Shown: positions 11,975 through 31,381 of the stretch, in pieces
Layout of the letters: every line of letters begins with the position of its first letter
Numbering within the stretch: position 1 is the first letter of the stretch
Origin: Lachnospiraceae bacterium
GTDB taxonomy: Bacteria; Bacillota; Clostridia; Lachnospirales; Lachnospiraceae
Direction of reading: 5' to 3'
NCBI GenBank assembly: GCA_017521605.1
Contig: JAFXCD010000003.1
Location: 1-64,000 of the forward strand
Length of the DNA stretch: 64,000 nucleotides
The notes under the pieces: generated by a model
What the model saw: the letters and a program-made list of their open reading frames with translations, nothing else
Databases searched by the model: none
What the model was told of the DNA's origin: nothing
Made by a program: the position numbers and the translations under genes

Positions 11975-12050
11975 ACGTGAATGCAACTGGCTACCATTTT
12001 ACAGGCCCTATAGCTTTGCGTCACAAGCTTTCGCTTGCTTTGCCAAATAT
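11975..12050 (-). ncRNA. c-di-GMP-I (GEMM-I) riboswitch
   Basis: On the minus strand the core reads GGCAAAGC, a hairpin closed by a GAAA tetraloop (CAAGCGAAAGCTTG), GACGCAAAGC, then AGGGCCT and GGTAGCCAGTTGC. These are the hallmark elements of the GEMM-I class: the GAAA tetraloop and its receptor, the ACGCAAAGC junction and the GGTAGC 3' arm. A strong promoter lies just upstream and a terminator just downstream. It probably acts at transcription; whether the ligand turns it on or off cannot be read from sequence. Confidence 0.93.
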
Positions 12051-12063
12051 TTAACTTAAGATT

Positions 12064-29338: not shown

Positions 29339-31036
29339 TTACATTTCTTCCGGACATTTCATCCCCAGTAATTCACAGCATTCTTTTATCACTCCCTGTG
29401 CCAGATTTACCAGATAAAGTTTGGCGTATTTTTCCTCTTCTTCTGCCTTTAAAATAGGACATTCATGATAAAATTTATTAAAGCTTGCACAAACAGAAAC
29501 TAAATACTTGGCAATCACGGAGGGCTCATATTTCTCAGCAGCTTTTTTTATAGCATCCTCATAGCCGGATAAATCTTTTATCAGCTTGAAACTGCAATCA
29601 TCGATTAGTTTTTCAAAATTTACTGTTTTGAAATCCTTGTTATAATCTGCCTTACGCAAAATACTTTTTGCACGTGCATAGGTATATTGTACATAAGGTC
29701 CGCTGGTTCCCTCAAAGCTTAAAACTTCTTCCCATTTAAAATCAATATTTTTAATCCGTTGATTAAACAGGTCATGAAAAATAACAGCTCCCACACCTAC
29801 CATTTGCGCCACTTCTTCTTTGTTCGCCAGCTCCGGATTCTTATTCATTATAGCGGTAAATGCTCGGTCTATAGCCTCCTTCAGGATATCCTCTGCATAG
29901 ATAATATTGCCGTCACGGGTGGATAACTTTGATCCATCCAGACTTACCAGACCATATGGTATGTGCACTAACCCTTGGCTCCAATCATAACCCATCAACT
30001 CAATCGCCTTAAATACCTGTTTAAAATGCAAAGTTTGCTCTAAACCGGTTACATAGAGACATTTTTCAAAGCCATAGGTTTCTTTCCGGTAAAGCACTGC
30101 TGCCATATCCCTGGAATGATAAATGGAAGCACCGTCACTTTTGGTAATCAGACAGGGAGGCATATCAAAGGCTGACAAATCCACCACATTGGCACCCTGA
30201 CTTTCCTGCAACAATTTCTTTTCTTTTAATTCTTCTACTAATGCAGGCACTTTACTACGATAGAAGCTTTCACCAATATAGGAATCAAAGGAAATCCCCA
30301 GCATATTATAAACCCGTTCAAACTCTAATATACTGATTTCCTTGAACCATTCCCAGTACTTAAGTGCCTCCGGGTCATCCTGTTCCATTTTAACGAGCCA
30401 CTGCCGTGCTTCCTCCACCAGCGCAGGGTTTGCATCCTTTTCCGCATTGAATTTAACATAAATTCGTAGCAGTTCATCGATACCCTTTTTCTCTACCTCT
30501 TCCTTGCTGCTCCAAAGCTTATATGCTACTATCAGCTTACCAAACTGGGTACCCCAGTCCCCCAGATGATTGATACGCACCACTTCATAGCCCAACTTAT
30601 CAAATATTTTATACAGGGAGTTTCCAATCACCGTGGTACGTAAGTGGCCTACGTGGAAATTCTTGGCTATATTAGGTGAGGAATAATCCATACAAATGGT
30701 TTTACCCAATCCCGGCCGGCCTACTCCAAAGCCTTCTGTCTGTAGCTTTTCCACACAGTTTTTTACATAAATCCCACGCTCCATGTAGATATTTACATAA
30801 CCGTTTACAGCCTCAATCCTGTTGATTCCCAGCTCCTTTTGTTTCTCTGCCAGACCTTCTGCCATTTCCTGAGCAATCACCTTTGGATTCTTTCGTAGTG
30901 TCTTTGCAAAAGCAAAACAGGGTAGTGCAAAATCTCCCATGTTTTCCTCAGGAGGTATCTCCAGCATATCTGTCATATCCTCCACACTTACATTTTCCAG
31001 TAACTTCACAATACTTTCTGCAATCTTTGTTTTCAT
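29339..31036 (-). CDS. argS: arginyl-tRNA synthetase
   Basis: A 565-residue class I arginyl-tRNA synthetase, which charges tRNA-Arg with arginine. The N-terminal Add1 domain begins MKTKIAESIVKLLE. The HIGH motif is FHVGHLRTTVIGNSL inside YSSPNIAKNF; as in many ArgS, the KMSKS loop is degenerate (SKLSTRDGN). The anticodon-binding DALR domain is C-terminal (GPYVQYTYARA onwards). Length is normal. AGGAGG precedes the ATG. A 310-base leader with an Arg-rich leader peptide, mutually exclusive hairpins and a terminator lies directly upstream and probably links expression to arginyl-tRNA supply. Confidence 0.97.
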   Translation of the reverse strand: MKTKIAESIVKLLENVSVEDMTDMLEIPPEENMGDFALPCFAFAKTLRKNPKVIAQEMAEGLAEKQKELGINRIEAVNGYVNIYMERGIYVKNCVEKLQTEGFGVGRPGLGKTICMDYSSPNIAKNFHVGHLRTTVIGNSLYKIFDKLGYEVVRINHLGDWGTQFGKLIVAYKLWSSKEEVEKKGIDELLRIYVKFNAEKDANPALVEEARQWLVKMEQDDPEALKYWEWFKEISILEFERVYNMLGISFDSYIGESFYRSKVPALVEELKEKKLLQESQGANVVDLSAFDMPPCLITKSDGASIYHSRDMAAVLYRKETYGFEKCLYVTGLEQTLHFKQVFKAIELMGYDWSQGLVHIPYGLVSLDGSKLSTRDGNIIYAEDILKEAIDRAFTAIMNKNPELANKEEVAQMVGVGAVIFHDLFNQRIKNIDFKWEEVLSFEGTSGPYVQYTYARAKSILRKADYNKDFKTVNFEKLIDDCSFKLIKDLSGYEDAIKKAAEKYEPSVIAKYLVSVCASFNKFYHECPILKAEEEEKYAKLYLVNLAQGVIKECCELLGMKCPEEM

Positions 31037-31049
31037 ATTTTACCTCCTG

Positions 31050-31099
31050 AAAATAAAAGAACCACAATAAATCAGTATTCACTAATCCATTGCGGTTCT
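31050..31099 (-). terminator. argS attenuator terminator
   Basis: AGAACCGCAAT and ATTGTGGTTCT form an 11-bp stem (one G-U) followed on the minus strand by TTTATTTT, 14 bases before the argS start. Its 5' arm can instead pair with CCATGCGGT at 31121-31129, giving an antiterminator. Confidence 0.85.
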
Positions 31100-31120
31100 G
31101 TAATCATTTTATAAACAGTG

Positions 31121-31190
31121 ACCGCATGGCAACAAGACGTAGTCCCTTGTAACCATGCAGTAATTCACATTGGTTACAAAGGCTTACGTC
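31121..31190 (-). promoter_or_regulatory. alternating hairpins of the argS attenuator
   Basis: Strand 1 (31171-31190, GACGTAAGCCTTTGTAACCA) pairs with strand 2 (31136-31155). The 5' edge of strand 2 (CTGCATGG, 31153-31160) can instead pair with strand 3 (CCATGCGG). Strand 3 can pair with the terminator's 5' arm (ACCGCAATGG, one bulge). A ribosome at the leader stop covers strand 1, freeing strand 2 to hold strand 3, so the terminator forms. A ribosome stalled at the first Arg codons leaves 1:2 to form, freeing strand 3 as antiterminator. Confidence 0.75.
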
Positions 31191-31230
31191 TCTCTCTTCG
31201 TCTCAAACTGTTTACAAAACTAATATACAT
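31174..31230 (-). CDS. arginine-rich leader peptide of argS
   Basis: An 18-codon ORF, MYISFVNSLRRRERRKPL, with TAGGAGG six bases before the ATG. Five of six consecutive codons (AGA CGA AGA GAG AGA CGT) include Arg, ending just before the first hairpin strand, and the stop codon lies inside that strand. This is the geometry of a ribosome-mediated attenuator. Too short for the usual gene cut-offs. Confidence 0.82.
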   Translation of the reverse strand: MYISFVNSLRRRERRKPL

Positions 31231-31240
31231 GTTATACCTC

Positions 31241-31306
31241 CTACATAACGCAAACAGCGTTTGCGTTACTGTCTAAATAGAAAGTGAAGAATCTTTGATT
31301 TTTCAC
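31241..31306 (-). CDS. possible second leader ORF, GTG start
   Basis: A 21-codon frame starts with GTG, AAAGGAG five bases upstream, and runs MKNQRFFTFYLDSN to a TAG that overlaps the ribosome binding site of the Arg leader peptide. A perfect 9-bp hairpin (AACGCAAAC/GTTTGCGTT) lies at its end. Translation of this frame could open the hairpin and couple translation into the Arg leader. Confidence 0.45.
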   Translation of the reverse strand: MKNQRFFTFYLDSNANAVCVM

Positions 31307-31352
31307 AATGACTCCTTTTGTGCCCCCGGCACATCACCTTCAATTTTTATGT

Positions 31353-31381
31353 AGCATAGCACAAAGCTACTCTGTTGGCAA
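31353..31381 (-). promoter_or_regulatory. argS leader promoter
   Basis: TTGCCA (31376-31381) and TATGCT (31353-31358) with a 17-base spacer on the minus strand. It starts just after the last por gene, so argS has its own transcript with a leader of about 310 bases. Confidence 0.72.

Follow-up and report, generated by a model that had tools for sequence, protein, structure and literature searches.

A leader with arginine codons upstream of a second argS in a Lachnospiraceae bacterium: a probable ribosome-mediated attenuator and its clostridial relatives with gene-matched sensor codons

Introduction

The attenuators of Salmonella his and E. coli trp have three states set by the position of the ribosome, with termination as the default when the leader is not translated. 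In Streptomyces, an auxiliary tryptophanyl-tRNA synthetase (TrpRS) is reportedly also controlled by attenuation, through a leader that carries codons for the cognate amino acid. According to the available sections of a 2010 paper (PMC2965389), leader-peptide attenuation had long been regarded as a mechanism that Proteobacteria and Actinobacteria use, T-boxes taking its place in Firmicutes. Individual cases of attenuation in Firmicutes have been shown since then. In the same sections of PMC2965389, bacilli are described as having His leader peptides ahead of hisZ and of a hisS paralog, and excerpts of PMC9413887 add His leaders before the his operons of five Eubacteriales, six Erysipelotrichales and the B. 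cereus group. In Listeria, Rli60 is a mutant-tested example of ribosome-mediated attenuation (PMC5864092, in part), and Salmonella orf34-speF senses arginine through tandem Arg codons in its leader ORF (PMC6386406, in part).

The locus analyzed here lies in the window, that is, the whole 64,000-nucleotide stretch of DNA from a Lachnospiraceae bacterium. The element at 31230-31050 on the minus strand is very probably a ribosome-mediated transcription attenuator that would sense charged tRNA-Arg and control an auxiliary arginyl-tRNA synthetase, and it belongs to a clostridial family in which one scaffold is reused with sensor codons that match the downstream gene.

The leader, its helices and the upstream repeat

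An initial annotation of this DNA had proposed an attenuator ahead of argS, and the leader ORF, the four mutually exclusive pairings and the terminator that it described were all found in the window (Table 1). The leader has 18 codons, among which are the five Arg codons claimed, AGA CGA AGA. AGA CGT, and the counted pairs formed are 17/17 in helix 1:2, 14/14 in 2:3, 10/11 in 3:4 and 11/11 in 4:5 (alignment row L026). Two details had to be revised: the terminator is present, but its T-run ends 13 nt, not 14, upstream of the argS ATG at 31036, and the strong ribosome binding site does precede the leader but belongs to a dispersed 80-nt repeat rather than to the attenuator. The second copy status of argS, helix 0:3, the repeat and the wider scaffold family were not part of that annotation.

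Table 1. Positions of the promoter, leader, pairing strands and regulated gene in the window
Feature	Position	Strand	Remarks
Likely promoter, TTGCCA, 17-nt spacer, TATGCT	31349..31381	minus	read from sequence
Dispersed 80-nt repeat with two hairpins; supplies the leader Shine-Dalgarno and ends on the ATG	31228..31307	minus	27 copies in own genome
Leader ORF MYISFVNSLRRRERRKPL, stop TAA	31174..31230	minus	frame kept with 3- and 6-nt indels in relatives
Strand 0 (leader codons ahead of the Arg run); partner 31119-31107	31207..31219	minus	
Sensor codons AGA CGA AGA	31195..31203	minus	RRR in 32/32 argS leaders
Strand 1 (last two Arg codons through past the stop)	31172..31191	minus	1:2 covariation
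Strand 2	31135..31154	minus	helices 1:2 and 2:3
Hairpin 2:3, separates strand 3 from strand 4	31122..31159	minus	98.6% of cells paired in 31 leaders; 96.0% across six types
Strand 3 and linker (partner 2, 4 or 0)	31107..31126	minus	
Strand 4 (partner 3 or 5)	31089..31101	minus	
Intrinsic terminator 4:5 with T-run	31050..31099	minus	97.0% of cells paired in 31 leaders; covaries across types
argS2, auxiliary arginyl-tRNA synthetase, 565 aa	29339..31036	minus	NCBIfam TIGR00456, 502 bits (cut-off 262)

The first sensor codon starts 12 nt upstream of strand 1, a spacing that fits the leading edge of a ribosome of the usual footprint. The predicted fold of 31048-31232 (minus strand) has -71.4 kcal/mol compared with -37.7 +/- 3.95 for 200 dinucleotide shuffles (z = -8.5, no shuffle as good), and it corresponds to the untranslated state: helix 0:3, of at least 13 bp, in which the start of the leader pairs with the linker, encloses 1:2 and is followed by the terminator. 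Elsewhere in the window, a c-di-GMP-I riboswitch at 11979-12054 (minus strand) is the sole Rfam match at the gathering cut-off.

The 80-nt repeat seems to have been inserted between the promoter and the leader start, where it now supplies the Shine-Dalgarno sequence. It is absent at the corresponding place in a sister leader (L056), which has the same two promoter hexamers with the same spacing upstream, and it was matched in only two of 60 relatives, one of the matches being 27 nt long. In its own genome, 25 of the 27 copies are followed by an ORF of at least 60 codons that starts between -7 and +22 nt from the repeat end, and for 19 of the 27 the distance is at most 3 nt. The window copy is scored as a miss here because its leader has only 18 codons. 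The repeat thus looks like a mobile or copied ribosome-binding-site cassette.

The second argS

Judged by the presence of a second argS, the argS of the window is an auxiliary isozyme. Among the 39 genomes bearing the element (two of which, G066 and G473, look like one assembly), 38 hold a distant argS1 and 36 hold both argS1 and argS2, that is, a second synthetase of the same specificity, as would be expected of a regulated auxiliary isozyme; the two proteins are about 33% identical. Two genomes (G067 and G175) have the leader and argS1 only, and one (G477) has argS2 only. The second argS of the window genome encodes 593 aa and scores 417 bits. Decayed argS2 genes with the leader left in place were found at four loci (L136, L164, L167 and L168); several lineages are losing the auxiliary synthetase.

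Conservation and covariation of the Arg leaders

Relatives were fetched with the window argS from whole genomes and from named genomes, which gave 108 loci with a readable argS start. A leader of the form M-x5-6-NSLRRRxRR(x)KLL, or a variant of it, occurs at 32 of them, and these are all 32 readable loci with an argS identity of at least 57% (lowest 58.1%); the highest identity among loci without the leader was 55.8%, and no such leader was seen in the upstream listing of the remaining readable loci. The leader pattern was tested on loci with at least 55% argS identity, the others being judged from that listing, and its demand for R[RL]R cost no readable argS of at least 57% identity. Two loci without a readable start (L048, which holds a 65% argS fragment at the edge of a contig, and L110) were not counted, and L080, a copy of L027, was dropped from alignment A1.

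All 32 leaders are translatable ORFs with a Shine-Dalgarno sequence and a conserved frame. Residues 2-6 vary freely, insertions are of 3 or 6 nt, and the middle sensor codon may be CGC, CGA or CGT. Conservation of the Arg codons and pairings in homologous leaders, on which the initial annotation had staked its reading, was borne out: RRR is invariant, and helix 1:2 covaries even where later Arg codons have been replaced. R4 or R5 is missing in some leaders with the pairing retained; AGACGT:ACGTCT has become AGACAT:ATGTCT through a change of CGT to CAT (Arg to His), and L142 has AGATGT:ACATCT (Arg to Cys). To judge from these substitutions, pairing outranks the amino acid at R4 and R5, and the RRR sensor stays.

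In the 31 aligned Arg leaders, helix 1:2 has 97.1% of cells paired and a covariation score of 0.246 versus 0.207 in shuffles (0/500 as high), and versions slid along the alignment are only 33-50% paired. Scores for 2:3 (0.253 versus 0.233) and 4:5 (0.162 versus 0.115) were also reached by 0/500 shuffles. The antiterminator 3:4 and the intrinsic terminator, which exclude each other, are both present; the signal is weakest for 3:4, which is 94.2% paired and near-invariant, its score being reached by 15/500 shuffles. A similarly weak signal was obtained for the short core of 0:3 (81.7% paired, score reached by 18/500), which is broken in 7 of the 31 leaders (2-3 of 6 pairs).

Pausing at rare codons was considered and rejected. 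AGA (249) and CGT (179) are the two commonest of the 647 Arg codons in the long ORFs of the window, which means that rare codons alone are not what the leader depends on. Also discarded was a Paenibacillus candidate for a separate Arg leader (RRFRIS upstream of argS), which by eye looks like the end of an upstream gene. Several Paenibacillus argS upstream regions (L114, L117, L118, L120, L128, L132 and L135) have in common a promoter and a hairpin, GCACCCC..GGGGTGC, with TT(T) after it; no leader ORF was seen in them by eye, and they perhaps hold another attenuator.

A wider family of leaders on the same scaffold

A search of 397 genomes of the family with model R1 gave 11 strong matches in 10 genomes, with 14 genomes matched at E <=0.01 and the remainder weak or due to chance. 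Eight of the strong matches precede argS, one an argS remnant, one (with a Glu-rich leader) a methyltransferase gene, and one a pair that by eye resembles BlaI/BlaR1. Two weak R1 matches proved to be this scaffold as well, with His codons; the gene downstream matches an amino-acid transporter binding protein at scores below curated cut-offs. Among the broader models used afterwards (R2 and R3), R3 found 43 places in 30 of the 397 genomes, read as Arg (10), Glu-rich (1), Asp (19), Asn (1), His (1), ABC exporter (1) and acetyltransferase-type (10) leaders. In 311 genomes of the class, matches occurred in six. One is the window genome; the remaining five come from three further families and carry His leaders before hisZ or hisS (one gene unknown) and Asn leaders before aspS. 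The window genome itself has a second member, MQNSIQCFQLNRDDDRQRL, before a non-discriminating aspS (G000:C61:3117-3276, minus strand).

Types were assigned by eye with both leader and gene in view. A set of 83 members contains three near-duplicate pairs (L159/L172, L227/L228 and L261/L262) and omits L144, L146-L149, L173, L178, L225, the L056-L084 set, repeated loci and unfetched places, some of them weak; L146-L149 and L225 appear to be leaderless chance terminators. Arg leaders are followed by argS2 or its remnant in 22 of 24 cases (the exceptions are L150 and L159, the latter with no argS match downstream), and all 25 Asp leaders precede an AspRS gene (23 non-discriminating, two of the bacterial type), 24 of them with DDD and L224 with D-N-D. 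His leaders are found before hisG (1), hisZ (2, one under the curated cut-off), hisS (1), a transporter binding protein (2) and an unknown gene (1), and Asn leaders before aspS (2) and an MTA/SAH nucleosidase gene (1). The Asn-codon leaders L261 and L262 precede AspRS genes of the bacterial type, an arrangement that would make sense if this AspRS charges tRNA-Asn with Asp for amidation. For the Arg, Asp and His types, the best evidence that the codons act as the sensor is that they are swapped along with the gene.

Two further types have leader peptides with no clear amino-acid logic. The ABC type, isoleucine-rich or hydrophobic, precedes one ABC ATPase family in 9 of 9 cases (L211, L213, L215, L217-L219, L221, L226 and L166), and the sensed signal is possibly a drug. 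Acetyltransferase-type leaders (L177, L212, L220, L240-L242, L244, L249, L250, L254-L256 and L258), many of which read MNQ..YMYMYYRRICL, precede one GNAT family in 8 of 13 cases and other genes in the remaining five; candidates for what they sense are Tyr codons and a drug.

Helices were tested across types in alignment A4 (30 members, six leader types). Helix 1:2 is 92.9% paired, with 42 cells changed on both sides versus 15.7 in shuffles and a score of 0.486 versus 0.263 (0/500), and 3:4 is 92.2% paired and scores 0.240 versus 0.193 (0/500), a +3 slide likewise scoring 0.193; both lie outside the search models. The figures for 2:3 (0.299 versus 0.252, 0/500) and 4:5 (86.7% paired, 48 both-side cells versus 19.2) are biased towards structure, because most members were found with models holding these helices. 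In strand-swap tests, whose figures are not true probabilities because permutation leaves relatedness in, cognate 1:2 strands of the 30 members, with strand 2 taken from alignment columns, gave -19.3 kcal/mol versus -11.1 +/- 0.7 permuted (0/10000); by type, the values were -18.9 versus -10.9 for ABC and just -18.1 versus -17.7 for Asp. An alternative 1:2 test (-22.2 versus -13.6, 0/5000) was set aside as biased, strand 2 having been located by pairing with its own strand 1. The same kind of test of 0:3 in the 83 members gave -16.4 versus -11.2 +/- 0.3 (0/5000), and within types 0/5000 for Arg, ABC and acetyltransferase, 6/5000 for Asp and 199/5000 for His (n = 7); strand 3 was located here by a duplex method, location by hairpin folding having missed many Asp members.

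Taken together, we lean with moderate confidence towards one six-segment, default-OFF scaffold across Clostridia whose codons have been swapped to follow the charging of Arg, Asp, Asn and His tRNAs and, possibly, ribosome-targeting drugs in the ABC-exporter, acetyltransferase and methyltransferase members.

The proposed switch

The response to arginine limitation, the kinetic switching and the order of events that we infer are as follows. Without translation, 0:3 would enclose 1:2 and lock strand 3, so that terminator 4:5 forms and argS2 is OFF; it is this fifth helix that predicts an OFF default. A ribosome stalled at AGA CGA AGA would hold strand 0 under or behind it, with its leading edge just short of strand 1; 1:2 would then form, and the freed strand 3 would pair with strand 4, turning the gene ON. 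A ribosome at the stop codon would cover strand 1, upon which 2:3 and 4:5 would form, giving OFF again.

Masked folds, in which the ribosome footprint was masked on transcripts ending after strand 4, agree with the sign of the switch proposed in the initial annotation for both stalling and finishing. When the first Arg codon occupied the A site, 1:2 formed in 31/31 Arg leaders and 3:4 in 26/31, and with a ribosome at the stop 2:3 formed in 30/31 and 3:4 in 0/31. Stalls at the second and third Arg codons gave 1:2 in 26 and 25 leaders and 3:4 in 25 and 24, respectively; without a ribosome, 1:2 appeared in 31/31, 3:4 in 3/31 and the short 0:3 core in 16/31. Truncated transcripts were used because equilibrium folds give the terminator in nearly every state: with strand 5 included, it was kept in 29-31 of the 31 leaders under every mask. 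Switching must therefore be kinetic and decided during transcription, and the mechanism would depend on a postulated kinetic barrier. In the full-length fold of the window leader, a stall at the second or third Arg codon favours 2:3 over 1:2. The coupling of transcription and translation has been doubted in B. subtilis, which counts against the mechanism.

When the 83 members were folded with the whole leader ahead of strand 1 covered as the stalled state, 3:4 formed in 76 stalled, 25 finished and 27 untranslated cases, seven members lacking it when stalled. Strand 3 paired with the leader in 70/83 untranslated folds, and 2:3 formed in 62/83 finished ones. Helix 3:4 was present in the untranslated folds of 2/24 Arg and 14/25 Asp members, so the default-off state stands out most in Arg leaders and is weak in Asp leaders.

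Alternative explanations

An alternative that we consider unlikely is that the leader is a drug- or ligand-sensing arrest peptide, with an antibiotic rather than charged tRNA-Arg as the signal. R-x-R motifs stall drug-bound ribosomes, and the Arg run contains such a motif. Related scaffolds precede genes for ABC exporters, GNAT acetyltransferases and methyltransferases, which resemble resistance genes, and auxiliary synthetases can be drug-resistant, a precedent being cited by title in the available part of PMC4787780. Against an arrest peptide, however, the N-terminal residues of the leader are free to vary, all three codons at the middle sensor position are in use, the sensor residues track the gene (Arg with argS, Asp with aspS, His with hisG), and a Glu-rich stretch substitutes for the Arg run where the gene is not argS (L144, L209 and L210).

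Still less probable is a region without a sensing leader, either a constitutive partial terminator with mRNA-stabilising hairpins or a site for the arginine repressor or another RNA-binding protein. The very stable rod and terminator of the equilibrium fold would suit such a region, but the reading frame, the position of the stop and the sensor codons are kept even as the RNA changes compensatorily, the mutually exclusive helices are all maintained, and codons that change together with gene function would be unexpected in a protein-binding site. Many Firmicute tRNA synthetases are controlled by T-boxes (for example Bacillus hisS, in the available sections of PMC2965389), but a T-box or another tRNA-binding riboswitch of unrecognised kind is hardly credible here: the leader holds a translated ORF with sensor codons, no T-box was found at the Rfam gathering cut-off in the window, in line with the initial annotation, or in 58 other loci (39 with the scaffold), and Rfam searches, which did not extend to L229-L267, gave no match over the leaders of the window and 39 loci. 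Attenuation by a ribosome that senses charged tRNA-Arg is thus the preferred reading.

Implications and comparison with known systems

If the reading of one scaffold with exchangeable codons across Clostridia is true, transcription-translation coupling in these Firmicutes would be tight enough for such switches, and spare synthetases would be a reserve mobilised by stalled ribosomes. A modular family conserved among Clostridia, with default-off pairing and a sensor that can be exchanged, would allow a direct test of that coupling and mark auxiliary ArgRS and AspRS enzymes as possible reserves induced by stress or inhibitors, and the scaffold might serve as a ready design for amino-acid-specific switches in gut bacteria.

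Likened by description rather than by sequence, the argS2 leader shares with the Salmonella his and E. coli trp attenuators the three ribosome-position states and default termination when untranslated, and differs in that the start of its leader pairs with the linker around 1:2 in a nested arrangement. The Streptomyces auxiliary TrpRS is said to be similar in being a second, auxiliary synthetase whose controlling leader has codons for the cognate amino acid, although the amino acid, the phylum and the RNA are different. Like the argS2 leader, orf34-speF has tandem Arg codons in a leader ORF, but the available part of PMC6386406 describes Rho termination, RNase G decay and speF translation rather than an intrinsic terminator before a synthetase gene. 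Listeria Rli60 is likewise a case of ribosome-mediated attenuation in a Firmicute, which concerns branched-chain amino acids and a biosynthetic operon (PMC5864092, in part). The published Firmicute His leaders are similar in combining runs of cognate codons with a terminator and an antiterminator, and L264, with five His codons before hisZ, may be of the same kind; the available sections of PMC2965389 and PMC9413887 describe neither a scaffold shared with Arg, Asp and Asn leaders nor a helix such as 0:3. No argS or aspS leader peptide of this kind was found in the open-licence literature, and the word argS is absent from the main texts of PMC2965389 and PMC11109978. Ribosome-mediated attenuation is already known, Firmicute His leaders included; what is new is the modular scaffold variant.
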